A DNA stretch of 64,000 nt from Bolinopsis microptera. Its lineage: Eukaryota > Ctenophora > Tentaculata > Lobata > Bolinopsidae. The position numbers and the translations under genes were made by a program. The notes below the pieces were generated by a model that did not search any database, was not told where the DNA came from, and was given only the letters and a program-made list of their open reading frames with translations. The stretch's first letter is position 1; each line of letters starts with the position of its first letter. This document shows, one piece after another, positions 123-63,783 of this stretch. The stretch covers positions 17,290,945 through 17,354,944 of the forward strand of contig NC_087079.1 of assembly GCF_026151205.1 (NCBI RefSeq), in the 5' to 3' direction.

Positions 123-3100
123 GTTAGGGGCTATAGTTTATACAACTTTACATATAATAGCTAAAGTTGGTTTCAGCTTTTATTAGGTTATGATGGACAC
201 ATGTTTTGACACATAACGATTCTTAACCTCCCAAAAGTATGGAATAACTTGTATCATCATGTTTTTAATATCTTCTTTGCAGGACATACTGTCAGTTTTT
301 CAATGAAATAAAATCTTCATTTCCCCTCCAGGATGGTGAATCCAGTTCAGACCCTGTTTCTCTTGACGTTATAGAAGTGGCCATGACAGCGGAACCTGCC
401 GTGCCTGCTCAAGACGTTGATATGACGGACAGTGAACGAGCCTCTTCTTCTAAAAGTGGCAAGGGTGAGTAATGAAGAGGACTTCTTAGTTTGTCCTAAC
501 TTGAGATCAACTTCAATATGTTTTTTCCTTGCTTTAAATGAACTTGTTATTTAACTATTCAATATGTGAACTTTGCATAATATGTATCGAATGGCAGGTT
601 TTAATGATTCTGTAACCTCTGTAATTTATTAGCTGTAACGTTATAATATGCTCCCTAGTATTAACTATTACAAAACCTTCAGGTGCTGCTAAGTCATGCA
701 GATCTATGTGTATTCCTCAGCGAGCAGCCCTACTTAAGAGCGTCCTCAACTTCCTCAAAAAATCCATCCCCGACCCCCTTTTCTCAGACTACATTAGAAA
801 CGGTTAGTTTTTACTTAGTAGTGCCCGTAGTGGCCGTTCTTTCTTAATCACGATTCATTTATTTAACTGAAATTTGGAAATTTAACAATAGTAAGTTTGT
901 ATTATAAGTTGCTGAGCTGTATTTTAAATTTAACAATCGTAAGATTGTATTATAAGTTGCTGAGCTGTATTTTCAGTGATGGATGGCTCCTTACCGAGCT
1001 CTCTAAAGCACATCATCAGTAAGGCTGAGTACTACGGACCCTCTCTTTTCCTTTTAGGTCAGTTTTACTTCATTTCTCGTAATTTCTCTAAGTATTATTC
1101 ATTTATACTTTATTCAGGTTTTTTTGTTACTCGTATGCTGCTTTCCAAAGAACCGGTAGAAATTTCCTGTTATGCGAAATATATTAAATAAATCAAGCCT
1201 TGATCTTGTCAGTTTTTTTATGTCAAACAGGTTCTTTTTTATTTTGTTTAAGCTGTGAAAAGATATTAACTATTGAATTAACATTTGGTTCTTGTTGCTA
1301 TAGCTACGGAGGTAGTAACACTTTACGTGTTCCACGAACCTTCCCTCCTGTCAAGTTTACAAGACAGGAAATTAACTGACGTTATACTTGAAGCTCTTGT
1401 TGTCAAAGAGGTGGGTTTTCTTTACTTTTCCCAGCTTTTAGCTCCGGATTAACAAAACCCAAAAGTTGGCCCGATTTATTTTATAGGCAGATTTTACCGT
1501 CAATTTTTTCCGCCGTTCTTGCCCTATTTTGAAGCAATTATCAAAACAATGATAAAGTGAGCTGAACAAGCAAAATACCGAACTTGAAGAGTGTCAGTAA
1601 AATAAATGTCCCCTTTCTTGCAGGTACCCCCAACTAGAGAAGTGATAGCTTCCTTACCCAACATCCTCAGTGCACTGTGCCTCAACCAGCGAGGTCTGGA
1701 GGCCTTTATTCAGTGCAAACCTTTCGACAGGCTGTTCCACGTCCTGCTGTCTCCGCAATACCTTCCCGCTATGAGACGCCGGAGCAGTGATAGCTTAGGT
1801 AAGTTCCACGTCCTGCTGTCTCCACAATACCTTCCCGCTATGAGACGCCGGAGCAGTGATAGCTTAGGTAAGTTCCACGTCCTGCTGTCTCCACAATACC
1901 TTCCCGCTATGAGACGCCGGAGCAGTGATAGCTTAGGTAAGTTCCACGTCCTGCTGTCTCCACAATACCTTCCCGCTATGAGACGCCGGAGCAGTGATAG
2001 CTTAGGTAAGTTCCACGTCCTGCTGTCTCCACAATACCTTCCCGCTATGAGACGCCGGAGCAGTGATAGCTTAGGTAAGTTCCACGTCCTGCTGTCTCCG
2101 CAATACCTTCCCGCTATGAGACGCCGGAGCAGTGATAGCTTAGGTAAGTTCCACGTCCTGCTGTCTCCGCAATACCTTCCCGCTATGAGACGCCGGAGCA
2201 GTGATAGCTTAGGTAAGTTCCACGTCCTGCTGTCTCCGCAATACCTTCCCGCTATGAGACGCCGGAGCAGTGATAGCTTAGGTAAGTTCCACGTCCTGCT
2301 GTCTCCGCAATACCTTCCCGCTATGAGACGCCGGAGCAGTGATAGCTTAGGTAAGTTCCACGTCCTGCTGTCTCCGCAATACCTTCCCGCTATGAGACGC
2401 CGGAGCAGTGATAGCTTAGGTAAGTTCCACGTCCTGCTGTCTCCGCAATACCTTCCCGCTATGAGACGCCGGAGCAGTGATAGCTTAGGTAAGTTCCACG
2501 TCCTGCTGTCTCCACAATACCTTCCCGCTATGAGACGCCGGAGCAGTGATAGCTTAGGTAAGTTCCACGTCCTGCTGTCTCCGCAATACCTTCCCGCTAT
2601 GAGACGCCGGAGCAGTGATAGCTTAGGTAAGTTCCACGTCCTGCTGTCTCCACAATACCTTCCCGCTATGAGACGCCGGAGCAGTGATAGCTTAGGTAAG
2701 TTCCACGTCCTGCTGTCTCCACAATACTTCCCGCTATGAGACGCCGGAGCAGTGATAGCTTAGGTAAGTTCCACGTCCTGCTGTCTCCACAATACCTTCC
2801 CGCTATGAGACGCCGGAGCAGTGATAGCTTAGGTAAGTTCCACGTCCTGCTGTCTCCGCAATACCTTCCCGCTATGAGACGCCGGAGCAGTGATAGCTTA
2901 GGTAAGTTCCACGTCCTGCTGTCTCCACAATACCTTCCCGCTATGAGACGCCGGAGCAGTGATAGCTTAGGTAAGTTCCACGTCCTGCTGTCTCCACAAT
3001 ACCTTCCCGCTATGAGACGCCGGAGCAGTGATAGCTTAGGTAAGTTCCACGTCCTGCTGTCTCCACAATACCTTCCCGCTATGAGACGCCGGAGCAGTGA

Positions 3101-6100
3101 TAGCTTAGGTAAGTTCCACGTCCTGCTGTCTCCGCAATACCTTCCCGCTATGAGACGCCGGAGCAGTGATAGCTTAGGTAAGTTACTATACTATATTCCA
3201 CGTCCTGCTGTCTCCGCAATACCTTCCCGCTATGAGACGCCGGAGCAGTGATAGCTTAGGTAAGATACTTTACTATATTCCACGTCCTGCTGTCTCCGCA
3301 ATACCTTCCCGCTATGAGACGCCGGAGCAGTGATAGCTTAGGTAAGATACTATACTATATTCCACGTCCTGCTGTCTCCGCAATACCTTCCCGCTATGAG
3401 ACGCCGGAGCAGTGATAGCTTAGGTAAGTTCCACGTCCTGCTGTCTCCACAATACCTTCCCGCTATGAGACGCCGGAGCAGTGATAGCTTAGGTAAGATA
3501 CTTTACTATATTCCACGTTCTGCTGTCTCCGCAATACCTTCCCGCTATGAGACGCCGGAGCAGTGATAGCTTAGGTAAGATACTTTACTATATTCCACGT
3601 CCTGCTGTCTCCGCAATACCTTCCCGCTATGAGACGCCGGAGCAGTGATAGCTTAGGTAAGTTCCACGTCCTGCTGTCTCCACAATACCTTCCCGCTATG
3701 AGACGCCGGAGCAGTGATAGCTTAGGTAAGTTCCACGTCCTGCTGTCTCCACAATACCTTCCCGCTATGAGACGCCGGAGCAGTGATAGCTTAGGTAAGT
3801 TCCACGTCCTGCTGTCTCCGCAATACCTTCCCGCTATGAGACGCCGGAGCAGTGATAGCTTAGGTAAGTTCCACGTCCTGCTGTCTCCACAATACCTTCC
3901 CGCTATGAGACGCCGGAGCAGTGATAGCTTAGGTAAGTTCCACGTCCTGCTGTCTCCGCAATACCTTCCCGCTATGAGACGCCGGAGCAGTGATAGCTTA
4001 GGTAAGTTCCACGTCCTGCTGTCTCCGCAATACCTTCCCGCTATGAGACGCCGGAGCAGTGATAGCTTAGGTAAGTTCCACGTCCTGCTGTCTCCGCAAT
4101 ACCTTCCCGCTATGAGACGCCGGAGCAGTGATAGCTTAGGTAAGTTCCACGTCCTGCTGTCTCCACAATACCTTCCCGCTATGAGACGCCGGAGCAGTGA
4201 TAGCTTAGGTAAGTTCCACGTCCTGCTGTCTCCACAATACTTTCCCGCTATGAGACGCCGGAGCAGTGATAGCTTAGGTAAGTTCCACGTCCTGCTGTCT
4301 CCACAATACCTTCCCGCTATGAGACGCCGGAGCAGTGATAGCTTAGGTAAGTTCCACGTCCTGCTGTCTCCGCAATACCTTCCCGCTATGAGACGCCGGA
4401 GCAGTGATAGCTTAGGTAAGTTCCACGTCCTGCTGTCTCCACAATACCTTCCCGCTATGAGACGCCGGAGCAGTGATAGCTTAGGTAAGTTCCACGTCCT
4501 GCTGTCTCCGCAATACCTTCCCGCTATGAGACGCCGGAGCAGTGATAGCTTAGGTAAGTTCCACGTCCTGCTGTCTCCGCAATACCTTCCCGCTATGAGA
4601 CGCCGGAGCAGTGATAGCTTAGGTAAGTTCCACGTCCTGCTGTCTCCGCAATACCTTCCCGCTATGAGACGCCGGAGCAGTGATAGCTTAGGTAAGTTCC
4701 ACGTCCTGCTGTCTCCGCAATACCTTCCCGCTATGAGACGCCGGAGCAGTGATAGCTTAGGTAAGTACCACGTCCTGCTGTCTCCACAATACCTTCCCGC
4801 TATGAGACGCCGGAGCAGTGATAGCTTAGGTAAGTTCCACGTCCTGCTGTCTCCGCAATACCTTCCCGCTATGAGACGCCGGAGCAGTGATAGCTTAGGT
4901 AAGTTCCACGTCCTGCTGTCTCCGCAATACCTTCCCGCTATGAGACGCCGGAGCAGTGATAGCTTAGGTAAGTTCCACGTCCTGCTGTCTCCACAATACC
5001 TTCCCGCTATGAGACGCCGGAGCAGTGATAGCTTAGGTAAGTTCCACGTCCTGCTGTCTCCGCAATACCTTCCCGCTATGAGACGCCGGAGCAGTGATAG
5101 CTTAGGTAAGTTCCACGTCCTGCTGTCTCCACAATACCTTCCCGCTATGAGACGCCGGAGCAGTGATAGCTTAGGTAAGTTCCACGTCCTGCTGTCTCCA
5201 CAATACCTTCCCGCTATGAGACGCCGGAGCAGTGATAGCTTAGGTAAGTTCCACGTCCTTCTGTCTCCACAATACCTTCGCGCTATGAGACGCCGGAGCA
5301 GTGATAGCTTAGGTTAGATACTTCTTATTCCTTATTTCCTGTCACATGGTCCAGACATTTTGCGCTCATTGAGCATTGTGCATTTTTTGGTGTAATAGTG
5401 GGGGGGGGGCAGGGACAAAAGGATTTCGCGATCATTTTGGTCAAAAATCGCGGTACCGCGAAATTTAACAGGCTATACATTAAACTATACATAAAATTTG
5501 TCACGGAGAATGGGAAATTTCGCGATTTCGTACATGCCGCGAAATCCTTTTGTCTCTGGGGGGGGGGGGGGGGGGGGGGCAATAGTCCATTTGGAACTCC
5601 ATTTTTCTTATCATTTATTAAAAAGACTAAAGTTTCGACCTCTGGTTTTTTTAAAACACTTTTCAGGAGACACGGCTACGAACCTAGGAACAGCTATGGA
5701 TGAGTTGATGAGGCATCAACCTACACTGAGACACGATGCAATGACTGCAATCATCAAGGTAACATACTCCCTGGAACAATATTATTGAACCATTATCAAA
5801 CCTTATTGAAATAAACTGTCTTTGGGCACTTTCAGAATAATCAGCAGTTGACAATGATCTCACTGAGTAAGATCAGTGCTACTAAACAGAACGTTATCCC
5901 CCCCCCCCCTACTAAACAGTATTAGAAGTATCGGTGGATATAATGCAGATATAGGGTATCCTCAGAAGTATCAGAAGTATATAGGTGTACTTATGCTAAA
6001 GCCTTTATTCATTAATTAGAATAAATAATATAAGTCAGGAGGTACTTACTGAGTAATGTCATGCTCATTGCTCAGGGGGGGGGGGGGGGGGGGTAGTTGC

Positions 6101-9100
6101 TCAGTAAGTCATGCGCGTCTAGACGGTATTTTCTGTAGGTAACGAGTTTAGAAATAAATTCTCCACAAACCAAGAAGTGCCCAACTTCTTTAAAATATTT
6201 AAAGACTATATTAACATAATATAATGTGTTTTAAAAGGACGTATTTATGTTTTTGACACATGGCAGCGTTAAGGGGACATACACCAAAACCATTTTTGCC
6301 GAGATTCGGGATTTGACTTCATATTATGAAAGTATAGATAAAAATAATAAGGTTTGATGCATTGAACATTTTTTTTGAGATTACGCACTTTCGAAAAAAA
6401 TGTATTTTCTTTTTGGAAAGTTTTGGAAATTTTGAGAAGTCTGTCACTGTAATACCGATATTTCAGTCATTTTAAACATGTTTTGACTGATTTTTTGACT
6501 GAACATTATTGAAAATACGTACAAGAAGCCCTCCAAAGGATTTTATAATTGAAAAATAGATGACGAAGTTACAGACCAAACAAGGTCGAGAGAAGCAAAA
6601 TTGAAATTTTTGCCTACTATCAGAGTTGTATATTTTACCAATCACCCAGGTCATAAGATATCGCTTCAAAAATTCGATAAGACGAATCTTTTAGTACCAA
6701 ATAGATAATTTTAGAAGCAAAATTGTTTTAAATAATTTTCTAGCTCGAACACAAGGGTCCCCCCTTGTATAAATTTTGTACAAATTGTACACATTTTTTT
6801 ACAAATTTAGTGTCTTTAAGTATTATAAATTTGGTACTTATCAAGCTGATTCGTCTTACCAAGCTGATTACGATTCTGTAAAAATCATTTCAAAAAAATG
6901 AGTTATAAGCATTTTAAGCCTTAAATCTGCCATTTCTGACCCTTTTTTACGATGAATTTTACTAAGTCCTTTGAGGCCAGATTTCATACCTTAAAATTCA
7001 AAATTGAGAGAAATCCTGTTCTAAAAAGTTGGATATGATCATCAGCTACACTCACAAGAATTTGTGAAGCGATATCTTATGACCTGGATCATTTATTGTT
7101 TAATTATAAAATCCTTTGGAGGGCTTCTTGTACCGATTGTAAATAATGTTCATTGAAAACATCAGCCAAAAAACATTTAAAATGACTGAAATATCGGTAT
7201 GTATGTTATTACAGTGACAGACTTCTCAAAATTTCCAAAACTGAACCAACTTAACTTCTAGCAATACCTATATAATATATATATCTTAAAGTTAAGTACC
7301 TGTAACTCCTAACACTGAATCTCTGCAGCTGCTAAAGGAGGTGTGTATCATGGGGGAAGATGAGAATGTGATCGTGCAGAACATGTCCCTTTCTGGTGAA
7401 CTTGCAGACAGGTACTGTGATGTACAATGTACTTTAATGTACTATGCACTGTGATGTACAATGTACTTTAATGTACTATACACTGTGATGTACAATGTAC
7501 TTTAATGTACTATGTACTATGTTGTACTGTGATGTACTTTATGAAAGTTAAAAACGATCTGTTAATGCGAAGTTGAACTAAACAAGAAATTACTTACTTA
7601 TTGAGCACTGAATTGGTGACAATTTCTTTGCTCAACTGAACGGTAGGTATTCTGTACTATATTCCGTAGTATACTACAACTGTACCATATAACCAGTGTG
7701 TATTGTTGCAGGGGTGATGAGAAGGGAGACGGGTCTGATGAGGATGATGAGGTAGTGATGAGGCGGGCTAAAGTATCAGCTGAGAACTCCCCTGCTGAAC
7801 CCCTAGCTCTCACAGGAACCAGGTTTACAAGTTTTACAGATTTTAAATGAACCGGGAAAAGCGGTTTGGATTATTGTTTAGCTCTCACATTATGACGAGG
7901 TGGCGTGCCAGTGTTTTGACGTCATGTCACGTGTTATGACGTCACTTCACGTGTTATGACGTCACTTCACGTGTTATGACGTCACTTCACGTGTTATGAC
8001 GTCACTTCACGTGTTATGAAGTCACTTCACGTGTTATGACGTCACTTCACGTGTTATGACGTCACTTCACGTGTTATGACGTCACTTCACGTGTTATGAC
8101 GTCACTTCACGTGTTATGACGTCACTTCACGTGTTATGACGCCATGTCACGTGTTATGACGTCATTTCACGTGTTATGACGTCACTTCACGTGTTATGAC
8201 GTCATTTCACGTGTTATGACGTCGTTTCACGTGTTATGACGTCACTTCACGTGTTATGACGTCACTTCACGTGTTATGACGTAACTTCACGTGTTATGAC
8301 GTCACTTCACGTGTTATGACGTAACTTCACGTGTTATGACGTCATGTCTCGTGTAATGACACCATGTCACGTGTTATGACGTCATTTCACGTGTTATGAC
8401 GTCATTTCACGTGTTATGACGTCATGTCACGTTTTATGACGTCATTTCACGTGTTATGACGTCACTTCACGTGTATCTAACCCCCAGTAGCAGCAGTACG
8501 AGCCCCACTAAACAGAGTCTCCCCCTGATGGAGTACGTGTACAATGTAGTCAGGTTTATTGACGCTATTCTCAGTAACAACGCTACTGACGATCACTGCA
8601 AGGAGTTTGTTAAACAAGGTCAGTTCCATAAGGAGTACTTAATAAAATTACATCTAAAGTCTTGTATTGGAGTTGGGGGGGGGGGGGGGGGGGGTTACAA
8701 CTTTGAAGTGACTCAGTACCTATTACATTTCATCGAGAATTGATTAAGATTAAGCAGTGTTACTGATTAGTCTTTTACTCTTTTTATTCTTCTTGGCACG
8801 AATTAAATGAGATCGGCGAGATTTCGTTTTCTGGCAACTGCATCATTTCGCCAAAATGTGAAATTAATGACATAAATACAACCCAGCATAATTGCGTGAA
8901 CAAGCTAATCTTATATAAAATACAAGTAGCTATTGAGGTTTATTTCAGGTGGGTTGGAACCGCTGATAAAGATTCCTTCGCTGCCCAACATTGCCATTCA
9001 GTTCGCTTCATCTCGAGCCTGCATGGATGTAGCCATTACTCTTAAAGACATATTGGCAAGTTTAATTTTGTAATAATTTTCATTAACCAATCAGTATTCA

Positions 9101-12100
9101 GTTTTAGTTATATTAACGTTTTAGTAATATTAATGTGAAAATATTTAACATATTTACCCTGGCAGACGTTATCTCAAGACGGGACAGTGATAGTTCAGTG
9201 CTTCAACCAGATAGATCAGCTGATAAAACAACTGGAGCCAATGTACAATCCTACTTCAGAGTCTTATCTTGTCAACGAACTTTCCAGGTATGTTCAATAT
9301 ATAACTACTATACTACTAGATACTACTACTATAACTCCTACTATACTACTATTACTACTACTATAACTCAATATAACTACTATACTACTAGATACTACTA
9401 CTATAACTCAATATAACTACTATACTACTAGATACTACTACTATAACTCAATATAACTACTATACTACTAGATACTACTACTATAACTCAATATAACTAC
9501 TATACTACTAGATACTACTACTATAACTCAATATAACTACTATACTACTAGATACTACTACTATAACTCAATACAACTACTATACTACTAGATACTACTA
9601 CTATAACTCAATATAACTACTGAATACGCAGTTGTTATTGTAAGGGAAGGCATTTCACGTTCTTCATTCAGTTGTAACGGAGGGGGGAGGGGGGGGGGGG
9701 GGGCAATTGTAACATTCAGCTCCAAAAAATATTGTCAAAAGAATTGCAAATATGCGAAATATTATGTACTACTATATACGCCCTTTCAAAGTTTTAATGA
9801 ACAATTTGATTGGTACCCATTTTACAATGGTGGTGGACTGAAATGTTTTCCAGAAAGTATTACTGTGTTACTGGCACATCACACGTTGACGACCAACAAA
9901 ACTTTTACCTCAAAACGAAATATAATGACTATCTTCGAGCTATTTAGGTTTTACAATGCCAAGCACCACCGCGGAATTTCAGTTCCATTTACCTCATGAA
10001 ATACATAACTGTGCGCATTCTTTTAGACCCTGTCTTAAAGTCTCATTGTTGTAAATTTATGTAAAGAGATAATATATTTATTTAAATTTTCCAATAGTGT
10101 TATTATGTTTGTACATGCTTGTATATTTCTTAACTAATTTAATTAAAGACTTTAGGGCCTCCGGGTACTGGGTAGTGAAAGGAAAAGTCTTAAAAAAGAA
10201 AAACAGTCGTTATTGCGGCTATTCGAAAATTAAGACTTTTCAATTAATAGTCGAATAGTACATCTATCATTAAATCAATAAATAAGTTACCTAATTAATC
10301 AATAACTTTCCCTCAGGTCCGCTACTCCGACTCAGCCTTACAACTCTGCTAAAAGTACGCCCCTCCTCCACACAATCACCGCCCTGGAGAGCTACACCAC
10401 CTTGCTTATCAGCCTCTGTAAAGTCGGCCAGGTAGGTAACAGTAGGTAACACTACACCACCTTGCTTATCAGCCTCTGTAAAGTCGGCCAGGTAGGTAAC
10501 AGTAGGTAACACTACACACGGGTAGGTAACAGTAGGTAACACTACACACGGGTAGGTAACAGTAGGTAACACTACACACGGGTAGGTAACAGTAGGTAAC
10601 ACTACACCACCTTGCTTATCAGCCTCTGTAAAGTCGGCCAGGTAGGTAACAGTAGGTAACACTACACCACCTTGCTTATCAGCCTCTGTAAAGTCGGCCA
10701 GGTAGGTAACAGTAGGTAACACTACACCACCTTGCTTATCAGCCTCTGTAAAGTCGGCCAGGTAGGTAACAGTAGGTAACACTACACCACCTTGCTTATC
10801 AGCCTCTGTAAAGTCGGCCAGGTAGGTAACAGTAGGTAACACTACACCACCTTGCTTATCAGCCTCTGTAAAGTCGGCCAGGTAGGTAACAGTAGGTAAC
10901 ACTACACCACCTTGCTTATCAGCCTCTGTAAAGTCGGCCAGGTAGGTAACAGTAGGTAACACTACACCACCTTGCTTATCAGCCTCTGTAAAGTCGGCCA
11001 GGTAGGTAACAGTAGGTAACACTACACCACCTTGTTTATCAGCCTCTGTAAAGTCGGCCAGGTAGGTAACAGTAGGTAACACTACACCACCTTGCTTATC
11101 AGCCTCTGTAAAGTCGGGCCAGGTAGGTAACAGTAGGTAACACTACACCACCTTGCTTATCAGCCTCTGTCGGCCAGGTAGGTAACAGTAGGTAACACTA
11201 CACACGGGTAGGTAACAGTAGGTAACACTACACCACCTTGCTTATCAGCCTCTGTAAAGTCGGCCAGGTAGGTAACAGTAGGTAACACTACACCACCTTG
11301 CTTATCAGCCTCTGTAAAGTCGGCCAGATAGGTAACAGTAGGTAACACTACACCACCTTGCTTATCAGCCTCTGTAAAGTCGGCCAGGTAGGTAACAGTA
11401 GGTAACACTACACCACCTTGCTTATCAGCCTCTGTAAAGTCGGCCAGGTAGGTAACAGTAGGTAACACTACACCACCTTGCTTATCAGCCTCTGTAAAGT
11501 CGGCCAGGTAGGTAACAGTAGGTAACACTACACCACCTTGCTTATCAGCCTCTGTAAAGTCGGCCAGGTAGGTAACAGTAGGTAACACTACACCACCTTG
11601 CTTATCAGCCTCTGTAAAGTCGGCCAGGTAGGTAACAGTAGGTAACACTACACCACCTTGCTTATCAGCCTCTGTAAAGTCGGCCAGGTAGGTAACAGTA
11701 GGTAACACTACACCACCTTGCTTATCAGCCTCTGTAAAGTCGGCCAGGTAGGTAACAGTAGGTAACACTACACCACCTTGCTTATCAGCCTCTGTAAAGT
11801 CGGCCAGGTAGGTAACAGTAGGTAACACTACACCACCTTGCTTATCAGCCTCTGTAAAGTCGGCCAGGTAGGTAACAGTAGGTAACACTACACCACCTTG
11901 CTTATCAGCCTCTGTAAAGTCGGCCAGGTAGGTAACAGTAGGTAACACTACACCACCTTGCTTATCAGCCTCTGTAAAGTCGGCCAGGTAGGTAACAGTA
12001 GGTAACACTACACCACCTTGCTTATCAGCCTCTGTAAAGTCGGCCAGGTAGGTAACAGTAGGTAACACTACACCACCTTGCTTATCAGCCTCTGTAAAGT

Positions 12101-15100
12101 CGGCCAGGTAGGTAACAGTAGGTAACACTACACCACCTTGCTTATCAGCCTCTGTAAAGTCAGCCAGGTAGGTAACAGTAGGTAACACTACACCACCTTG
12201 CTTATCAGCCTCTGTAAAGTCGGCCAGGTAGGTAACAGTAGGTAACACTACACCACCTTGCTTATCAGCCTCTGTAAAGTCGGCCAGGTAGGTAACAGTA
12301 GGTAACACTACACCACCTTGCTTATCAGCCTCTGTAAAGTCGGCCAGGTAGGTAACAGTAGGTAACACTACACCACCTTGCTTATCAGCCTCTGTAAAGT
12401 CGGCCAGGTAGGTAACAGTAGGTAACACTACACCACCCTGCTTATCAGCCTCTGTAAAGTCGGCCAGGTAGGTAACAGTAGGTAACACTACACCACCTTG
12501 CTTATCAGCCTCTGTAAAGTCGGCCAGGTAGGTAACAGTAGGTAACACTACACCACCTTGCTTATCAGCCTCTGTAAAGTCGGCCAGGTAGGTAACAGTA
12601 GGTAACACTACACCACCTTGCTTATCAGCCTCTGTAAAGTCGGGCCAGGTAGGTAACAGTAGGTAACACTACACCACCTTGCTTATCAGCCTCTGTCGGC
12701 CAGGTAGGTAACAGTAGGTAACACTACACCACCTTGCTTATCAGCCTCTGTAAAGTCGGCCAGGTAGGTAACAGTAGGTAACACTACACACGGGTAGGTA
12801 ACAGTAGGTAACACTACACCACCTTGCTTATCAGCCTCTGTAAAGTCGGCCAGATAGGTAACAGTAGGTAACACTACACCACCTTGCTTATCAGCCTCTG
12901 TAAAGTCGGCCAGGTAGGTAACAGTAGGTAACACTACACCACCTTGCTTATCAGCCTCTGTAAAGTCGGCCAGGTAGGTAACAGTAGGTAACACTACACC
13001 ACCTTGCTTATCAGCCTCTGTAAAGTCGGCCAGGTAGGTAACAGTAGGTAACACTACACCACCTTGCTTATCAGCCTCTGTAAAGTCGGCCAGGTAGGTA
13101 ACAGTAGGTAACACTACACCACCTTGCTTATCAGCCTCTGTAAAGTCGGGCCAGGTAGGTAACAGTAGGTAACACTACACCACCTTGCTTATCAGCCTCT
13201 GTCGGCCAGGTAGGTAACAGTAGGTAACACTACACCACCTTGCTTATCAGCCTCTGTAAAGTCGGCCAGGTAGGTAACAGTAGGTAACACTACACACGGG
13301 TAGGTAACAGTAGGTAACACTACACCACCTTGCTTATCAGCCTCTGTAAAGTCGGCCAGATAGGTAACAGTAGGTAACACTACACCACCTTGCTTATCAG
13401 CCTCTGTAAAGTCGGCCAGGTAGGTAACAGTAGGTAACACTACACCACCTTGCTTATCAGCCTCTGTAAAGTCGGCCAGGTAGGTAACAGTAGGTAACAC
13501 TACACCACCTTGCTTATCAGCCTCTGTAAAGTCGGGCCAGGTAGGTAACAGTAGGTAACACTACACCACCTTGCTTATCAGCCTCTGTCGGCCAGGTAGG
13601 TAACAGTAGGTAACACTACACCACCTTGCTTATCAGCCTCTGTAAAGTCGGCCAGGTAGGTAACAGTAGGTAACACTACACCACCTTGCTTATCAGCCTC
13701 TGTAAAGTCGGCCAGGTAGGTAACAGTAGGTAACACTACACCACCTTGCTTATCAGCCTCTGTAAAGTCGGCCAGGTAGGTAACAGTAGGTAACACTACA
13801 CCACCTTGCTTATCAGCCTCTGTAAAGTCGGCCAGGTAGGTAACAGTAGGTAACACTACACCACCTTGCTTATCAGCCTCTGTAAAGTCGGCCAGGTAGG
13901 TAACAGTAGGTAACACTACACCACCTTGCTTATCAGCCTCTGTAAAGTCGGGCCAGGTAGGTAACAGTAGGTAACACTACACCACCTTGCTTATCAGCCT
14001 CTGTCGGCCAGGTAGGTAACAGTAGGTAACACTACACACGGGTAGGTAACAGTAGGTAACACTACACACGGGTAGGTAACAGTAGGTAACACTACACCAC
14101 CTTGCTTATCAGCCTCTGTAAAGTCGGCCAGATAGGTAACAGTAGGTAACACTACACCACCTTGCTTATCAGCCTCTGTAAAGTCGGCCAGGTAGGTAAC
14201 AGTAGGTAACACTACACCACCCTGCTTATCAGCCTCTGTAAAGTCGGCCAGGTAGGTAACAGTAGGTAACACTACACCACCTTGCTTATCAGCCTCTGTA
14301 AAGTCGGCCAGGTAGGTAACAGTAGGTAACACTACACCACCTTGCTTATCAGCCTCTGTAAAGTCGGCCAGGTAGGTAACAGTAGGTAACACTACACCAC
14401 CTTGCTTATCAGCCTCTGTAAAGTCGGCCAGGTAGGTAACAGTAGGTAACACTACACCACCTTGCTTATCAGCCTCTGTAAAGTCGGCCAGGTAGGTAAC
14501 AGTAGGTAACACTACACCACCTTGCTTATCAGCCTCTGTAAAGTCGGCCAGGTAGGTAACAGTAGGTAACACTACACCACCTTGCTTATCAGCCTCTGTA
14601 AAGTCGGCCAGGTAGGTAACAGTAGGTAACACTACACCACCTTGCTTATCAGCCTCTGTAAAGTCGGCCAGGTAGGTAACAGTAGGTAACACTACACCAC
14701 CTTGCTTATCAGCCTCTGTAAAGTCGGCCAGGTAGGTAACAGTAGGTAACACTACACCACCTTGCTTATCAGCCTCTGTAAAGTCGGCCAGGTAGGTAAC
14801 AGTAGGTAACACTACACCACCTTGCTTATCAGCCTCTGTAAAGTCGGCCAGGTAGGTAACAGTAGGTAACACTACACCACCTTGCTTATCAGCCTCTGTA
14901 AAGTCGGCCAGGTAGGTAACAGTAGGTAACACTACACCACCTTGCTTATCAGCCTCTGTAAAGTCGGGCCAGGTAGGTAACAGTAGGTAACACTACACCA
15001 CCTTGCTTATCAGCCTCTGTAAAGTCGGCCAGGTAGGTAACAGTAGGTAACACTACACCACCTTGCTTATCAGCCTCTGTAAAGTCGGCCAGGTAGGTAA

Positions 15101-35753: not shown

Positions 35754-35793
<40 letters not shown>

Positions 35794-41700: not shown

Positions 41701-44700
41701 GAGCTAATGGACGTCATCTCTAGACCCATCCCTATCTCAAATGAAGGTGAGCTAATGAGATTTGTGAAGGTTTCTCCACCAACTCCGGCTAGTATACAAT
41801 AATAAAATGTTCAGTTAATTAAATTATACACTAATTTTCTTATTCTGTAACCACGTAACACACTGTAATCTCAGGAGCTAGCTGGTCAGGACGACCAGAC
41901 CGGCTAGTTGGGGACGAGGATGAGGACGAGGAGGAGAGACGAGAAGCGGCGGAGGAACCTGCTGTTAGAAGCAGTCCTAATCACGCTTCTAGCTCCTTTA
42001 TTCAGGCTCTTCAGGGACTTGGGGAACCTTTCACTAATCAACAGGTTCAGATTCGGGGAATCAAATCACTAATTCCGTGTTTTGTGAGGTTTTATGACTA
42101 TGCTAGTAGCAACTTATGACTACGTCGCAGCTGTTTCAGGCAGCCGCGACCTTATTTGTGATTTTACTTGTAGACTGGAATATTGAGAATTATAAACTTC
42201 TGAATTACAACTCAGGGTTACTCTGGCGACGGGGATGAGGACGAAGGTGACAGTTTCAGTGATGAAGAGGACGGGGATGACGATGACGATGATGGTGATG
42301 ATGATGATGATGACGATGATGATGACGAAGAAGAAGATCGTCTGGGTAACAATCCAGAGGATGAAGATGATCACGGTGTCGATGGTAAGATGTCCACATA
42401 GTCAGTTGTTGCTTGTTGAATCTTAAATTGTAAGCATTCTTCTCAGAGATAGTGGCTATCATGAGGAGATGGCACTTATTAGGTTGCAGTCAGGTTTCTA
42501 CTAGTAATATTATATTGAAATATGCTCCCTCAGACACGGTTGATGAAGCGGATGCTAACATGGTAGACGAGGACGAGGGTAGTGATATGGAGGTGGACGA
42601 TGATGACGACGAGGACGATGTGGATATGGAACTGGACGACACTTCTAACCTCGTCTTCGATACCACTCGTGCTGACAACTTCAACCTTGACTTCCTGGTA
42701 AGATACCACTCGTGCTGACAACTTCAACCTTGACTTCCTGGTAAGATACCACTCGTGCTGACAACTTCAACCTTGACTTCCTGGTAAGATATCACTCGTG
42801 CTGACAACTTCAACCTTGACTTCCTGGTAAGATACCACTCGTGCTGACAACTTCAACCTTGACTTCCTGGTAAGATACCACTCGTGCTGACAACTTCAAC
42901 CTTGACTTCCTGGTAAGATACCACTCGTGCTGACAACTTCAACCTTGACTTCCTGGTAAGATATCACTCGTGCTGACAACTTCAACCTTGACTTCCTGGT
43001 AAGATACCACTCGTGCTGACAACTTCAACCTTGACTTCCTGGTAAGATAACACTCGTGCTGACAACTTCAACCTTGACTTCCTGGTAAGATACCACTCGT
43101 GCTGACAACTTCAACCTTGACTTCCTGGTAAGATACCACTCGTGCTGACAACTTCAACCTTGACTTCCTGGTAAGATACCACTCGTGCTGACAACTTCAA
43201 CCTTGACTTCCTGGTAAGATACCACTCGTGCTGACAACTTCAACCTTGACTTCCTGGTAAGATACCACTCGTGCTGACAACTTCAACCTTGACTTCCTGG
43301 TAAGATACCACTCGTGCTGACAACTTCAACCTTGACTTCCTGGTAAGATACCACTCGTGCTGACAACTTCAACCTTGACTTCCTGGTAAGATACCACTCG
43401 TGCTGATAACTTCAACCTTGACTTCCTGGTAAGATACCACTCGTGCTGACAACTTCAAGCTTGACTTCCTGGTAAGATACCACTCGTGCTGACAGCTTCA
43501 ACCTTGACTTCCTGGTAAGACACCACTCGTGCTGACAACTTCAACCTTGACTTCCTGGTATGCACTGCAACTCCGGACTCCGGGCCGAATCCGGTATTTG
43601 TTCCTTACATGGAAAAACTTGTGGAATTAATTGACTTCACCATATAGATTTTTTTTGAGAAGATGATGGCCAATCTCCATGCTTGGAATTAATCACAACG
43701 TTTTTAGTTTTGAGTCTTATAGAAATCTTCTTCGTTCTTCACAAAAGATGCACCAATATTTCTAGTAATTCACATTTCACAACACTGCTATCCACTCCAG
43801 AATGACGAAGAAGAGCAGTTTGTAGCAGTGATGAACACTTCCCGTTTGAACAGCGCCAGAACACACTTTAGATGGTCCAACCACAGTCCCCTTGCCAGAG
43901 GTAACCCGTTAACATTATTATGGTCCAACCACAGTCCCCTTGCCAGAGGTAACCCGTTAACATTATTATGGTCCAACCACAGTCCCCTTGCCAGAGGTAA
44001 CCCGTTAACATTATTATGGTCCAACCACAGTCCCCTTGCCAGAGGTAACCCGTTAACATTATTATGGTCCAACCACAGTCCCCTTGCCAGAGGTAACCCG
44101 TTAAAATTATTATGGTCCAACCACAGTCCCCTTGCCAGAGGTAACCCGTTAACATTATTATGGTCCAACCACAGTCCCCTTGCCAGAGGTAACCCGTTAA
44201 AATTATTATGGTCCAACCACAGTCCCCTTGCCAGAGGTAACCCGTTAACATTATTATGGTCCAACCACAGTCCCCTTGCCAGAGGTAACCCGTTAACATT
44301 ATTATGGCCCCAATAATAAACGTTCATTCGTTTGTGATGATGTATTTTTTAAGTATGTAGATTGTAAATGATAAAGCTACTGCACATAACTCTGTTAGTG
44401 CGCTTCTCTACCAGCCCCCTGGCTACTGTTCTCTAGTTAGAGTCTAAGTAGAACTACCCCCGAAAATAACCCTTCCTCGGCAGCTAGAGCCCGAGCTAAC
44501 GGCTCCACCAGCTCAGGACTCCCTACTATATATATATAATAACCCTTCCTCTGCAGCTAGAGCCCGAGCTAACGGCTCCACCAGCTCAGGACTCCCCACT
44601 TCTCATCCCCTGTTAATGAGGAACAGTGACATCAGCTCCACTACCGACACCACCACCACTGCTGCTGCTGGTTTGTAGTCTTTTGTACAAATCAGAATAG

Positions 44701-47700: not shown

Positions 47701-50700
47701 CGGCAAGGAGCAATATTTTTCCATGGGACCAAAAGCATCTGATAGATATCACTCCCCTCTATCAGAAACAACTATTAAGTCAATTTCGAGAGAATTTTGA
47801 TGAAGACCCCCCTGCCCTCTTAATAGATACTTCTTAAAGGTTTCTAGTTAAGATGTGAGGTGATGCCATTCTGATGCTGATAACTGCAACACCCTCAGTA
47901 ACCCCAGTAACACCCTCAGTAACCCCAGTAACACCCTCAGTAACCCCAGTAACACCCTCAGTAACCACAGTAACACCCTCAGTAACCACAGTAACACCCT
48001 CAGTAACCACAGTGTCCTCGGCAATAACGGAGGTGACCTCTTTAGCCAGTGAGGTAGCAGCCAGCATCAGTGCTCTACGTGGTACTGTTCCTGCTCCTGA
48101 ACCAACGAACGAGACCTCTGCTCAAACTGACACTACCCCTGTCAACGCTATCTATATTGATGGTTAGTTTACTCGGGGGGAGGGCAAGTTTGAGATTTTG
48201 TCTACATCTTCAATGAGATAACTGCCGGGAAATTATTAATTAATTAATTAACTTGAGAATTAATTAAGTTTAACTTGGGAACCTCTGCACGATAGAGTAC
48301 AGCAAGGCCGACCAAGACAAAGCTGCTTGTCTATGTTGCTGAAGGAAGTTGAGACAAACTCTAAAGAGGAACTGCGAACCCTGATGCGGGACAGGGATAT
48401 ATGGAGGGGGTTATCTGGCGTAGATATGACTAAGTTCCGACATAGTAGTAGTGAGATACTGTATTGCAGAATTTTTCTAGTCCTCAAGTCTCTAAATATC
48501 TCCATCTGTCAGGAATTCCAGTACCAGAGGGAATAGACCCCTCCTTCCTGGAGGCTCTGCCCGATAGTATCAGGATGGAAGTGCTACTGGAGCAGAGTGC
48601 TGCACTGGAGCGACAACGCCGCGTAGCTGCTCAGCAGCGTGCAACCACGACGGAACCTCAGCAATCAGGGACTGGTGAGCTAGAGTTAACATGTTGTTGA
48701 AACTTTAGCTCTGACCTTTTAGAAGGACGTGCACTAATTATTGTATTTCAAACTCCAATGTAGATTATAGATCCAATTATGACTATTCAGAGAGGCTAGG
48801 TTCCACTATATTCATTATTTTAACTAGCAGGAACCCGTATAACACTAAAATGGTGTCAAGACTCAAGAGACTAAACTAATTATTACCTATTTAATTCGCG
48901 TTTTTGACCGTCGTCTTGGGGGTCCGAATTTTGGGCTCTAAAACTCCAATTCCTTGGCCAATTTTTATTTGTTCATACTGATTTGGAGGCCATTAAAGCA
49001 TTTGACCCAGTCAAAATTGATGACGTGATGTCAGTAAAATGGTACGGATCCATCCATATATATCGTCTCGCTTTACACATAGTAAGATTTATATTATAGT
49101 AAGATTGTTTGTTAATAATGATTGTATTACCTAGTGGAACGAACAGACTCGGCGTACAACCCGAGTGATGTACTCATGTCACTCCCCTCCTCATTGAGAA
49201 GAAGTGTTCTGGCTGACATGGAGGAGAGTCAACTCAACTCCCTGAGCGAGGTAATGTAGTGTAGTGTAGTGTAGTGTAGTGTAGTGAAGTGTAGTGTAGT
49301 GAAGTGTAGTGTAGTGTAGTGTAGTGTAGTGAAGTGTAGTGTAGTGTAGTGTAGTGTAGTGTAGTGAAGTGTAGTGTAGTGAAGTGAAGTGTAGTGTAGT
49401 GTAGTGAAGTGTAGTGTAGTGTAGTGTAGTGAAGTGTAGTGTAATGTAGTGTAGTGTTGTGTAGTTTAGTGTAGTGTAGTGTAATGTAGTGTAGTGTAGT
49501 GCAGTACAGTGAGGTGTAGTGTAGTGTAGTGTAGTGCAGTGCAGTGTAGTGTAGTGTAGTGTAGTGTAATGTAGTGTAGTGTAGTGTAGTGTAATGTAGT
49601 GTAGTGTAGTGTAGTGTAGGGTAGTGTAGTGTAGTGTAGTGTAGTGTAGTGTAGTGTAGTGTAATTTAGTGTAGTGTAGTGTAGTGTAGTGTAGTGTAGT
49701 GTAGTGAAGTGTAATGTGGTGTAGTGTAGTGAAGTGTAATGTGGTGTAGTGTAGTGTAGTGTAGTGTAGTGTAGTGTAGTGTAGTGTAGTGTAGTGTAAT
49801 GTAGTGTAGTGTAGTGTAGTGTAGTGTAATTTAGTGTAGTGTAGTGTAGTGTAGTGTAGTGTAGTGTAGTGTAGTGTAGTGAAGTGTAATGTGGTGTAGT
49901 GTAGTGTAGTGAAGTGTAATGTGGTGTAGTGTAGTGTAGTGTAGTGTAGTGTAGTGTAGTGTAGTGTAGTGTAATTTAGTGTAGTGTAGTGTAGTGTAGT
50001 GTAGTGTAATGTAGTGTAATGTAGTGTAGTGAAGTGTGGTGTAATGTAGTGTAGTGTAGTGTAGTGTAGTGTAGTGTAGTGTAGTGTAATTTAGTGTAGT
50101 GTAGTGTAGTGTAGTGTAGTGTAGTGTAGTGTAGTGAAGTGTAATGTGGTGTAGTGTAGTGTAGTGTAGTGTAGTGTAGTGTAGTGTAGTGTAATTTAGT
50201 GTAGTGTAGTGTAGTGTAGTGTAGTGTAGTGAAGTGTAATGTGGTGTAGTGTAGTGTAGTAAAGTGTAATGTGGTGTAGTGTAGTGTAGTGTAGTGTAGT
50301 GTAGTGAAGTGTAGTGAAGTGTAGTGTAGTGTAGTGTAGTGTAGTGTAGTGTAATGTAATGTAGTGTAATGTAGTGTAGTGAAGTGTGGTGTAATGTAGT
50401 GTAGTGTAGTGTAGTGTAGTGTAGTGTAGTGTAGTGTAATGTAGTGTGGTGTAATGTAGTGTAGGGTAGTGTAATGTAGTGTAGTGTAGTGTAGTGTAGT
50501 GTAATTTAGTGTAGTGTAGTGTAGTGTAGTGTAGTGAAGTGTAATGTGGTGTAGTGTAGTGTAGTGTAGTGTAGTGTAGTGTAGTGTAATTTAGTGTAGT
50601 GTAGTGTAGTGTAGTGTAGTGAAGTGTAGTGTAGTGTAGTGTAGTGTAGTGTAGTGTAGTGTAGTGTTCTGGCTGACATGGAGGAGAGTCAACTCAACTC

Positions 50701-53700
50701 CTTGAGCGAGGTTATGTTCCCCCCCCCCCCCCCCCCCCCCCCTAATGTTTCTATTTAAATGCACATCAATATTATTAATAATAAATATCAAATCAAATAT
50801 TGTTTGCACCTAGAAAAAAAAGCTATTATTGGAGTTAAGAAAACATCAACGAATTGCAGAACTATCTGTCTCGTATATTTATGTTTTAGTATGAAAGCCC
50901 TCTTACTTGTGTGTCGCATCTTTAGTGTTTAGATTAAACTGTAATTACTGAACCTTTCGCTCCCAGGACTTAGTACAAGATTACGAGAGGATCAGATCGG
51001 AGCAAAGAGCTCGAACAGTCTACACGACCATTCCCTCCAGGTACTCCTCATTTAGTGTGAGAGGTCCCTACCATTTCATCATGTAGTCTTGTAGTCACGA
51101 CTTTCCCATTCTCAACCTTTTCATACATGATATTATTTGTTCTATTCGCACAATTCTGATGAACATAACATTTCCCCCCTTTTTATTTTAACGAATCTAA
51201 TCCGAAAACCACAAGTGGATTTTGTCTGATTTTGTTAATCTTGCCCTTTGACTAAGATTTTTTTCTGCCATGTCCCATATGACTTGTTTCCTCTACCCCA
51301 CCCCTTTTGTGTTCGACTTTTCCCTCTACTTCTCTTTCAATAGCTCGTCAAACCCCGCCAGTCGCTTTCGGTTTTAAAATCTACATCTCTAATTTTGGTA
51401 GCATCTATCGTTATTTCACACCATTAGATTTATTATTGATCTCATAATTGATCTCATAATTGATCTCATAATTGATCAAGTTTACTGGTTCCTCACGTCA
51501 TGCTCTCTTTTTGCTCACATAACGTTCTCTTTTTGTTCACATAACGTTCTCTTTTTGCTCACATAATGTTCTCTTTTTGCTCACATAATGTTCTCTTTTT
51601 GCTCACATAACGTTCTCCTTTTGCTCACATAACGTTCTCTTTTTGCTCACATAACGTTCCCTTTTTGCTCACACCACGTTCCCAATTTTATTTATTCGCA
51701 TCACGATCCTTATTCGCTCAAATCACGTTCTCTATTTAATCTTATCACGCTCTCTTTTCGTTCACATCAGCGTTTGCTTGCTCTGCTACCTGTGGGGAGG
51801 AAATATAACCGGCTCTTAAAATTTCCGTTAAGAAAGAGCAACAACATACTAGTCTTCCCTCAAATTGTGTATCTTTCTCAATGTCCGCCTAATTAACTAA
51901 GCACGTTCAGACCACGTTGCCATCGTAACCGTGCACGTGCATGGTGGTGGCGCACGTGCACGTGCAAGGATTGCGCTGGCAATACATCAGTTTTCTCCCC
52001 ACAGTGCCGGAGGAACAAGTAGGGCTGGTGGGTCTGCCAGATCACTCCTCTCCCGTCTTAATAACCTTGTAAACTTCAGGTAACCCCCAGTAACGCTTTA
52101 TACTTGTCTTCCACCTCGAAATGTTCTCCTGTCATTTGATCAGTGGATGGCCATTCTTAGAAAGTATTCCAAGAAGATGAAAATTACAAGAATTAATTAG
52201 CACTGTTGCTCGGAGGATTATTGAGGAGATAAAGTAGTAGTGGAGATCAAATGAAAGGCGAACATTTCCACAAAAAAACCTGTCCATGCTGTTAAATCAT
52301 GTTTTTGTCTCGTTATTATAGCTCATGTTAATGTAGTCTTCAGTAGATCAGTCCTAAACTGTTCTATGTTTTCATTCAATGTCCTGTAGTATTATGTTAG
52401 TATGCATATTCAGCTCTAAATGGCTAAATAAAGGAAACCCACCCCTCCCCACCCCACAAACTCCCAAAAGTAGCCCTGAAATGTTACTGCGTAGTTACAG
52501 GACGCTAAACATAGGCGGAGAAGGCCGGAGTGGGACGAGCAATCGAGCCTCTATTGGTCCTATCTTCGCTTCAACTATCCCTCCCTTCCCTCCCGTCAGT
52601 GGACTGTCCACCACCGGCAACACTTACAAACACGAGGTACGTATTTCATAAACACTTACAAACACGAGGTATGTATTTCATAAACACTTATAAACACGAG
52701 GTACGTATTTCATAAACACTTACAAACACGAGGTACGTATTTCATAAACACTTATAAACACTTACAAACACGAGGTATGTATTTCATAAATACTTATAAA
52801 CACGAGGTACGTATTTTATAAACACTTACAAACACGAGGTATGTATTTTATAAACACTTACAAACACGAGGTATGTATTTTATAAACACTTACAAACACG
52901 AGGTATGTATTTCATAAACACTTATAAACACGAGGTACGTATTTTATAAACACTTATAAACACGAGGTATGTATTTCATAAACACTTATAAACACGAGGT
53001 ATGTATTTCATAAACACTTATAAACACGAGGTACGTATTTCATAAACACTTACAAACACAAGGTACGTATTTCATAAACACTTACAAACACGATGTAAGT
53101 TCTTGATTTCAATCTTCAAAAAACTAACAAATTGTGTCACGTTATAATGATATCACCCTCTCCCAGATAAAACGAAGTGCGCAGTTGCAAGAAGAGGTGA
53201 GGAAGGTGATAAAGAAGAAGCCTATAGAGCACGAGGCTATCACCTGCCTACTCGTCCTCCTCTTTATCGATGATTCGCTCAGGTATCATTGTCAGGGGGA
53301 GCTTAACCGCATTTAACACGAGAAGCAGCAGTAGTAAAATGCGGCTGGAGTCACTTCAGACTCTTCTCTTATATCCATGCTATTTTGTGATAATAATTAA
53401 TACCCGTGCCAATAAAATGACAACTTGTTCACCTACCCTTGAACTCATTATCCTCCTTCTCCCCGGTTCTAAATTTGTTTCCTCCTCTCCTAGGTTACAA
53501 ACGTCTCGATTACACCGAGTTTTAAGGAACCTGTGTTGTAACACTGCTTCCAGAACCTGGGTCCTCATATCCCTTATATCCATCATACAGAAATGCAGCG
53601 CTGCTAAGAAGGTTCGACCTCTAATTAATTAATTTAATTCCTTGTGTAATCTTATCTTTACCTTGTCAAGCTAATTCCTTGTGTAATCTTATCTTTACCA

Positions 53701-57500: not shown

Positions 57501-58896
57501 AAGCAGTTAAACCCTCAATTGTATGTTGTATTTACAGGGGGTGCCACGTCCGTCTATCTGTCCGCTTGTCTCATAGAATCCAAAAAGGACTGGACAGGAC
57601 AGGACAGGGCATAGGTCCAAAAGTGGACAAAAAATTTGTTAAAGTTTGCTAATGAGGCAGGGTGGTACTTTTTAAAAAAGTCACATTTTATGTGGTTCAC
57701 CCTATAGATCCTGTTAAAGGTATTTTGAAGTACGAAGTGAGATGTCAAGCAATGTTGTACTACTAAGTCAAAATCTTTTCACTTTTTTTTTTCTGGAAAC
57801 TACTTATGTTCACGATTCATGCTACCCTGATCATTATTAGCCGAAAATATTTTTATGATTTTCGGAGTCCGGACCTACCCTTTGGTATACGATTTTGGAC
57901 TCGAAGGTTCCCTCTTGTAATGCGATCCCGGGAGGCAGGCCTCCCTTTTGCAGTGCGAGCTCGGAAGCGGGAGCCCTGCCTTCAGAGGTGAGTGGTACGT
58001 ATCAAGAATGACTTGGACCAAAAATTTTCTAAGCCAAATCTTTTCAAAGTTTTTCTGGAAACGAATTTTGTTCATGTTTCATGCTGTCATGATCATTATG
58101 AGCTGAAAATATTGTGTCCAAATCTTGTGCGAAAAATCCTTATAATGTTTGTCCGTTAATGTCCGCCAATGTTCGTCAATGTCCGCTGATGTCCCAAAAA
58201 CACGTCCGTTTGTCTCATAGAATCCAAAAAGGACAGGACATAGGCGGAAAATATTTACAGTGGTATTTTCTTCGAAGATTTTCCGCTCCAGTGTATTTTC
58301 TTTAAGAGGTCTCCTATCAGACGTAGCCCATAGACAAGTCTGTCTGTTTGTTTGTTTGTGCCTAACAACTTGAAAGCCACTGACCATTAAATATTACAGT
58401 TTTTCAGTCAATATAACGCATGCTACTAGTGATCTGGTGATAGCTGACTGATTATTGGTACTGATTGTTAACAACTGAGAATGATAGCAGTCAGCTGTAA
58501 ATATCAAGTTACATATTCTAATGTGTCCCAAGCCTCGCCGACTTTCTTCTGTGCCGGTATCATGTCCCTGGCCCTATAATAATCCTTTTACTACACCTCG
58601 CATTTATTGATTACTATCTCCCAGCATTCGTCACTTTAAGGAACGTTACCTGCCATTGTTATTGATGAGGACCCGGTGCCAAGCGAGCAAGTAGTCACAT
58701 ACTCCGCCGCTTAAAGTTCTAGTTTTGTTTTGGTTGAACACGCTGACCGATAGATGGCTCAGTGCACGTGCGACCTGTAGCTGTGCACGTGCAACCATCT
58801 AACCTCGTTATCGGAACTCCCGGAACTTGTTAAAGACAGGACCTAAAAATACCTCATAATAATAACAATGTTAAGTATTAACTCTACATTTCAGGT
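54596..58896 (+). other. 4.3-kb stretch without a recognised gene
   Basis: AT-rich. Contains a poly-C run at 56213-56230, an array of gagtcatgacgggagttcct units at 56449-56690, and two partial direct repeats (tctcatagaatccaaaaagg at 57570 and 58213; ttctggaaac...gatcattat at ~57790 and ~58055). After a good acceptor (ctccag at 57163-57168) only nine codons are open before TGA. I find no HUWE1-like peptide. Confidence 0.6.
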
Positions 58897-63650: not shown

Positions 63651-63783
63651 ATGATAAGAAACATATTTCAATCTGCATACTGGTTATGGTTAATGAATAA
63701 TGGTATCTCAATTTATGTCATATTTATGTAGATCGTGAATTTGTTAGACGATTGAAGAGGTAAACTACTACACCCCCCCCCCC

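Follow-up and report, generated by a model that had tools for sequence, protein, structure and literature searches.

Tandem repeats lying across exon-intron boundaries are known from amphioxus, where those of the Adh3 gene were reportedly given the name 'mirages' by Canestro in 2002. In later reports, mirages in the amphioxus globin genes occur at both types of boundary, have units of 10-160 bp, differ between haplotypes and leave splicing undisturbed by RNA evidence (PMC3087553), and further examples come from the PGBD5 and troponin C genes (PMC3902484); the accessible part of the amphioxus huntingtin paper notes tandem repeats and makes no mention of mirages (PMC2206037). The locus compared here is a stretch of 64,000 nucleotides from Bolinopsis microptera (C8:17290945-17354944 on contig NC_087079.1, hereafter the window, to which all coordinates refer), which lies ~1.1 Mb from the contig end in an assembly of 264.65 Mb and 232 contigs and carries on its plus strand a HUWE1 gene of animal type. 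Fourteen different segments of this gene that straddle modelled splice junctions are repeated head-to-tail, in 2-86 copies each, and the extra copies would leave the transcript with the intron; the probability of this reading is put at about three in four.

The assignment to HUWE1, made in a preliminary description of the window from the sequence alone, is borne out by homologues, by domains and by the end of the gene. A search with 60 residues of exon 1624-1798 gave 608 homologues; identity in the best 120, as listed, is 71-80% across 92-100% of the query, and the specifically named proteins among these best 120 are mostly animal HUWE1. Single exons match the Pfam families UBA, WWE and DUF913. 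Both gene ends lie outside the window, the first exon found being ~8 kb upstream, and the gene is ended downstream by an intact HECT exon, the frame around which matches Lingula at 67.6% identity across 543 residues. For the gene model, 16 of the 120 listed homologues were built into a HUWE1 profile, which a custom splice-aware aligner matched to the DNA; a coding term was added to catch poorly conserved exons, and curation gave 61 exons, 60 of which were used in the joined frame. When one copy per array is kept, these 60 exons (683-54595) join into 2699 codons with 0 stops, versus 178 and 212 stops in the other two frames, and the model is 33-52% identical to proteins over 17-78% of its length (best 120 of 805). 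Exon numbers used here are one or two lower than those of the preliminary description. In the curated model, the sole non-GT donor is an apparent GC donor at exon 8949-9055 (TTG/GCAAGT at the border). Open frames are present inside a HUWE1 intron at 31989-32830; two scanned pieces gave no Pfam match, and a resemblance to the first protein of a retroelement is an impression only. The HUWE1 gene models of Acipenser (P0001) and Lutzomyia (P0002) each have two occurrences of the motif of exon 1624-1798, with spacings of 85 and 152 residues, through either model error or duplication.

Tandem Repeats Finder (TRF) returned 117 rows. Merging by hand gave 54 arrays for the modelled gene, and the period is at least 10 in 50 of them, the other four (period <10) being left out of the counts. 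With 'spanning' defined as at least 4 exonic and at least 2 intronic bases inside the array, 14 of the 50 arrays contain a modelled splice junction (9 donors, 5 acceptors), with units of 28-129 bp. Every spanning array includes one junction, with one end inside a modelled exon and the other in the intron, short of the next exon. The GT or AG is intact in 311 of the 317 splice-site copies over the 14 arrays, and in the seven arrays (of 14) examined, there are 0-2 nt of difference between the copy taken as used and the array consensus. Donor units hold 4-97 intronic bases and acceptor units 19-45 (P 0.23 for the difference); in the arrays at 1734-5314 and 42659-43560, which have only four intronic bases per unit, the start of the next copy supplies further donor bases. 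Compared with intronic arrays, spanning arrays have more copies (median 12 vs 3.2, P 0.008) and longer units (56.5 vs 21.5 bp), and their unit length is a multiple of three in 8/14 versus 9/34 cases.

The preliminary description had placed 16 named exon borders in arrays, and 14 of these correspond to TRF arrays spanning a modelled junction. The border of its exon 57 is different in kind: exon end and donor are duplicated over 55 nt (53 identical) around a GTAGT pentamer array (49251-50667; 1.4 kb, ~283 units) that starts exactly at the first intron base, and the array at its exon 55 (47888-48013) ends one base past the acceptor, so that it abuts the junction rather than spanning it, and is open in frame. 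The array at its exon 29 (29046-30005) does span a modelled acceptor and is counted among the 14, although its 33-bp unit is open in frame and the array may be coding instead. The claim that the units arose independently is largely supported: they differ in sequence, the mean pairwise score between units being 8.3 vs 7.4 for shuffled units. For the five best of the 91 unit pairs, scores of 14-18 exceed the 99th percentile of shuffled units (13) without reaching their maximum (21), and slight sharing of intronic sequence among units is possible.

These features suggest how such arrays could be tolerated. Each array has one end inside a modelled exon and carries a donor or acceptor in its unit, and the frame of 2699 codons is open with a single copy read from each array. 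A tandem duplication that happens to include the junction would most likely survive because the copy adjoining the exon body is used and the rest is spliced out, probably at little cost, and an array formed across a junction could then expand fast through slippage or unequal exchange. Exon definition would take the outermost copy (the first donor or the last acceptor), leaving the protein unchanged and the intron lengthened, with no new intron. That expansion could be masked by splicing, as the preliminary description proposed, accords with the finding that reading through one extra copy (only one was tried) meets a stop in 10 of the 14 arrays. Splicing at the duplication 44465-44600 must use the second copy, because the first copy runs into a stop. 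Selection on the spare splice sites would be expressed as fewer mismatches in the splice core than in the rest of the unit, and over seven arrays no consistent constraint of this kind was found, the splice-core mismatch rate being lower in exons 5, 38 and 43, about equal in 12, 28 and 58, and higher in 61.

The same anatomy bears on the idea, favored in the preliminary description, that introns are being born here from tandem duplication of an AGGT-bearing exon segment (the Rogers model), which has been documented in potato and fission yeast (PMC4974935, PMC3629103). AG/GT is present at 9 of the 14 array junctions, as the model would have it, but also at 43 of 106 other junctions (P 0.15), and is thus not significantly commoner at array borders. 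The arrays stop short of the next exon, and their units hold intron sequence beside exon sequence. Donor and acceptor contexts within an intron are not alike, scoring 4.49 for the same intron vs 4.42 for mismatched pairs (P 0.23), and none of the 60 introns exceeds the 99.9th percentile of the mismatched scores. The birth of introns from these duplications was rejected on this comparison and is regarded as very improbable. Existing introns appear instead to have been lengthened, because the arrays sit at one intron end without reaching the next exon and the donor and acceptor contexts are unlike.

The arrays could alternatively encode protein repeats of variable number, in which AG/GT within open units of a multiple of three would act as a dual-specific splice site and the number of units in the messenger RNA would vary, as in polyubiquitin. 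Dual-specific sites are enriched in human tandem-repeat genes (PMC10809524); at this locus, four arrays stay open with an added unit, the aligner with its coding term reads the 69-bp array as a series of exons, a 45-bp array near the start codon of a neighbouring transporter gene lies in an open frame of 1210 codons, and the motif of exon 1624-1798 is present twice in 2 of the 4 HUWE1 relatives checked. Against this stand the stops met with one extra copy in 10 of the 14 arrays, the lack of AG/GT enrichment, and the stops or frame breaks inside the 69-bp array, where open frames end after 377, 183 and 580 codons. Variable protein repeats are an unlikely explanation, and removal of the extra copies with the intron is the preferred reading.

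The preliminary description also held that arrays overlap exon borders more often than chance would allow, and within this gene an excess is seen, strong among the large arrays and weak over the whole set. Null models were built by collapsing each array to one unit and placing the units at random. Uniform placement in the array-collapsed gene gives 5.4 spanning arrays versus the 14 observed, a number reached in 0 of 2000 simulations, and placement minus wholly exonic positions gives 6.6 (P 0.003). Under a null that keeps each unit in the same intron (two wholly exonic arrays being left out), the 48 arrays together show a weak excess (14 spanning vs 9.2 expected, P 0.045), and the 18 arrays of at least 200 bp, a threshold picked after the data had been seen, show a strong one (13 vs 5.4, P 1e-4). 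Seventeen of these 18 span a junction or lie within 20 nt of one (8.5 expected, P 4e-6), versus 1 of the 30 arrays <200 bp that spans one (3.8 expected). In a sweep of thresholds from 80 to 800 bp, P was <0.02 at each threshold tried (n 30 down to 6), and at 1000 bp it was 0.076 (n 4); threshold-free tests weighted by copy number or length gave P 0.002-0.005 for spanning. Some of the exons rest on weaker evidence: when the five arrays at such exons are recoded as non-spanning, 9/48 are left (P 0.19), and when they are removed, 8 of 13 large arrays still span a junction (3.6 expected, P 0.007). When only arrays near a junction are considered, P is 0.17 for a limit of 50 nt, 0.053 for 100 nt and 0.026 for 150 nt. 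Sequence recurrence within 6 kb amounts to ~10% at positions no more than 12 nt from a junction (52/504 exonic, 47/483 intronic), vs 3.7% (133/3579) at >150 nt into introns and 0.4% (3/759) at 51-150 nt into exons. All of these tests cover the gene up to 54595, and the arrays in the large HUWE1 intron that follows (56452, 60258, 65738 and others) stand outside them.

A likely transporter gene at ~61.2-69.4 kb, on the minus strand, is apparently nested in this large intron, because HUWE1 exons resume at 71331. Transporter exon 61780-62169 scores above the Pfam cut-off for Sugar_tr and below that for MFS_1; the remaining exons were assigned by eye from frames and splice signals. Beyond a 100-N run at 88276-88375 (L013:4276-4375), the assembly contains a second version of the 3' part of HUWE1 and of the transporter gene, with 97.0% identity in the longest block (3460 columns). 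The two assembled copies are probably alleles, i.e., a second haplotype left in the assembly; a protein search with four HUWE1 segments (260 aa) found no second copy of the HUWE1 body. Array copy number differs between the two versions of this neighbouring stretch (21 vs 1, 80 vs 1 and 13 vs 10). The first contrast belongs to a 57-bp array whose unit would comprise the end of transporter exon 1 and its donor: in the expanded copy, an interrupted second unit and ~0.5 kb of different sequence lie between the putative exon 1 end and the array, and reading through the first donor unit leads to a stop. The second belongs to the 45-bp coding array near the start codon (65738-69338, L011:1738-5338; 80 copies by TRF), the unit of which is single in the other assembled copy as read from the sequence (L013, around 5276-5320); a unit counter gave 79 vs 0, the unit being phase-shifted. 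A second gene thus appears to repeat the junction-array pattern and to show the unexpanded state, provided that the copies are alleles and the exons are as assigned. Repeats and nested genes are in themselves unremarkable for a ctenophore, because Hormiphora has both: its nested intronic genes are described as common and 13% of its genome as repeats by TRF (PMC8527503).

The paired copies also bear on whether the arrays might have been inflated by long-read consensus errors. In favor of this, the assembly carries an adjoining second copy of the 3' part after the run of 100 Ns. However, scattered and shared variants distinguish the copies in 6 of the 7 arrays examined (none in the 33-bp array), and the sequence on either side of the differing arrays agrees between the two assembled versions, which makes an assembly artefact highly improbable. 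The coordinates of the junction arrays and related features are collected in Table 1.

Table 1. Junction-spanning arrays and related features of the HUWE1 locus (window coordinates).
Feature	Position	Strand	Description
HUWE1 exon 5 (6 in the preliminary description), DUF913	1624-1798	+	Donor TAG/GTAAGT at exon-intron border; 71-80% identity to listed homologues; Pfam DUF913
Donor-spanning array	1734-5314	+	69-bp unit (65 exonic + 4 intronic), ~52 copies
Donor-spanning array, exon 10317-10431	10392-15561	+	60-bp unit (40 exonic + 20 intronic), ~86 copies
Donor-spanning array, exon 16077-16245	16232-16654	+	Unit ~67 bp (14 exonic)
Donor-spanning duplication, exon 20560-20747	20716-20992	+	129-bp unit (32 exonic), 2.1 copies
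Acceptor-spanning array, exon 25524-25646	25186-25542	+	Unit ~57 bp (19 exonic), 6 copies
Acceptor-spanning array, WWE exon 26888-27052	26604-26898	+	Unit ~56 bp (11 exonic)
33-bp x 29 array	29046-30005	+	Acceptor-spanning for exon 29992-30175, or in-frame coding repeat
Donor-spanning array, exon 36257-36375	36318-39983	+	66-bp unit (58 exonic + 8 intronic), ~55 copies
Donor-spanning array, exon 41399-41554	41524-41757	+	48-bp unit (31 exonic), 5 copies; weaker exon evidence
Donor-spanning array, exon 42534-42697	42659-43560	+	43-bp unit (39 exonic + 4 intronic), 21 copies; weaker exon evidence
Donor-spanning array, exon 43801-43900	43872-44307	+	48-bp unit (29 exonic), 9 copies; weaker exon evidence
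Acceptor-spanning duplication, exon 44557-44670	44465-44600	+	73-bp unit, 1.9 copies
21-bp x 6 array abutting acceptor of exon 48013-48162	47888-48013	+	One exonic base only; also open in frame
Exon end + donor 49203-49257 and duplicate 50663-50717	49203-50717	+	53/55 identical; flank GTAGT array 49251-50667 on both sides
Donor-spanning array, exon 52414-52636	52619-53097	+	32-bp unit (18 exonic), 15 copies; weaker exon evidence
Acceptor-spanning array, exon 54443-54595	53778-54451	+	28-bp unit (9 exonic), 24 copies
58-bp x 5 array, non-spanning	62200-62541	-	~18 nt from putative transporter acceptor
43-bp x 13 array	63094-63652	-	Unit with putative acceptor + exon start; second exon apparently starts here; 10 copies in other assembled copy
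57-bp array, window part	63790-64000 (of 63790-65023)	-	Unit = putative transporter exon 1 end + donor; ~21 copies vs 1 in other assembled copy

Outside the window, 109 introns were mapped in ~300 kb of the genome as a hold-out, comprising HUWE1 beyond the window, 14 stretches with HECT genes and six myosin genes; HECT and myosin exons scoring no more than 25, introns >12 kb, the weak downstream HUWE1 'exons' 79-80 and loci L001-L008 were excluded, and the transporter gene is not among these introns. Spanning arrays are found in 14 of 60 introns in the window versus 1 of 109 in the hold-out, where the single one, a small array, lies at a doubtful, low-scoring first exon. Counting also the arrays that come within 20 nt of a junction gives 1 of the 7 large arrays there, vs 2.0 expected, and 12 of the 48 small ones, vs 8.5 expected. 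Large-array DNA makes up 21.2 kb of the window's gene part (~54 kb) and 7.2 kb of the 20 kb upstream of the window. The myosin stretches, 65 kb in all, hold only 1.7 kb of it, and the HECT stretches hold 0-4.2 kb in each 10 kb. The junction-array finding is a property of this locus and not a genome-wide rate.

Several observations weigh against the proposed reading. The window was selected in the preliminary description as striking, and the excess that was expected there to hold genome-wide is absent from this small hold-out, in which 0 of 7 large arrays (1.3 expected) and 1 of 48 small ones (3.5 expected) span a junction. The 20 kb upstream of the window is likewise rich in arrays, and the two large arrays that fall within mapped introns there both fail to span a junction. 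Within the gene, the same-intron excess over all arrays is weak as it stands, and removal of the five arrays at weaker exons leaves 9/43 overall, vs 7.4 expected (P 0.3). Four of the 14 arrays (at exons 1624-1798, 41399-41554, 43801-43900 and 29992-30175) remain open with an extra copy read, so that inclusion of copies in the protein is possible there, and the two assembled copies could represent a true tandem duplication instead of alleles.

Most of these points fit an account without any junction preference, in which a locus rich in expanding minisatellites has short introns and is purged of exonic duplications, so that overlaps with junctions arise by chance and the window was noticed as an extreme case. 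The weak all-array excess, the lack of any excess among small arrays, the hold-out counts and the density of large-array DNA here compared with the myosin stretches all agree with it. It does not readily yield the 13 spanning arrays among the 18 large ones, the 17 of 18 that span or closely approach a junction, the outcome of the threshold-free weighted tests, or the difference in the proportion of introns with a spanning array between window and hold-out. Chance overlap is judged unlikely on balance, while deserving serious consideration. A bolder form of the preferred reading, in which a hot locus of ~75 kb (HUWE1 and the apparently nested transporter gene) undergoes tandem expansion that favors splice junctions, an exon edge with one copy in one allele turns into tens of copies in another, outermost-copy splicing hides the result and intron length evolves in bursts, is put forward tentatively and may well not hold. 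In the preferred reading itself, the weakest step is that larger arrays at this locus would grow preferentially from exon borders.

A few further features of the locus and of the control loci deserve mention. Upstream of the first HUWE1 exon found, at window coordinates -13034 to -11554, there is a 37-bp x 39 array with a donor-like CCCAG/GTTAGT in its unit. A one-exon class A receptor gene (58894-59847; Pfam 7tm_1) is 94% identical to one protein, and the only one of its 58 hits with an organism name comes from the ctenophore Mnemiopsis leidyi (56% identity), in keeping with a ctenophore source for the window; it has a 54-bp x 3 repeat at its 3' end (59771-59932), and its C-terminus differs from that of the 94%-identical relative. 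Chromosome-4 HECT genes were considered as a HUWE1 paralogue control and dropped, because their HECT part shares 39% identity with that of HUWE1 and they resemble an ankyrin-HECT gene by eye. Two ankyrin-HECT-like gene copies on C4 (L001 and L002) lie 28 kb apart with 99.9% protein identity, possibly an assembly duplication of the same kind as that beside HUWE1. A pair of near-identical kinesin gene copies (L036 vs L037), tried as a case of changing intron length, differs by an insertion of ~0.9 kb in one intron, with inverted ends by eye and no array, and a 2-kb piece of another intron of this sort contains short repeats only.

The presence of 14 junction arrays with ~311 splice-site copies in one conserved gene represents an unusual density. 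It offers a test of splice-site choice, since up to 79 near-identical donors could compete at one border and one extra copy breaks the frame in 10 of the 14 arrays. Next to HUWE1, the likely before-and-after pair (1 vs ~21 copies of what would be an exon edge and its donor) could allow direct measurement of what junction-array growth costs and of its part in the lengthening of introns.

Searches for tandem repeats or minisatellites in ctenophore introns, covering open-licence papers, gave no title or abstract start on junction arrays. Intron gain by duplication, as in ATP2A1 and the potato RdRp gene, also involves duplication with splice signals, and the potato case likewise crosses an intron-exon boundary (PMC4974935); there, however, a new intron arises between the copies, whereas here an existing intron is lengthened. 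Dual-specific splice sites in polyubiquitin and VCX3A resemble these arrays in that AGGT in a tandem unit provides a potential 5' and 3' site per copy (PMC10809524), but the intron there is a whole number of units within coding repeats, while the HUWE1 arrays stop partway through the intron. The internal tandem repeats known from human exon-intron boundaries are also border minisatellites that alter introns, with units of ~30 bp; they have ~4 copies and belong to recent paralogues in segmental duplications (PMC2812944), in contrast to the long arrays of one gene seen here. The closest likeness is to the amphioxus mirages of Adh3, the globins, troponin C and PGBD5, which share repeats across a donor or acceptor border, units of tens of bp, many AG/GT copies and haplotype differences in copy number. 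With modelled junctions taken as the reference, the unit spans the boundary in the 14 HUWE1 arrays, one of which may instead be coding, both 5' and 3' boundaries are represented and unit lengths fall in the mirage range (28-129 bp). A difference in copy number between haplotypes would be shared as well if the two assembled copies of the neighbouring stretch are alleles. Unlike the mirages of amphioxus, these arrays likely belong to another phylum, are 14 in one gene and are known from modelled junctions, and their copy number reaches 86, compared with 3 and 6 in two haplotypes of an amphioxus globin mirage. The HUWE1 arrays are likely mirage-like, a known kind of element from lancelets that would here extend to a likely second phylum at unusual density.

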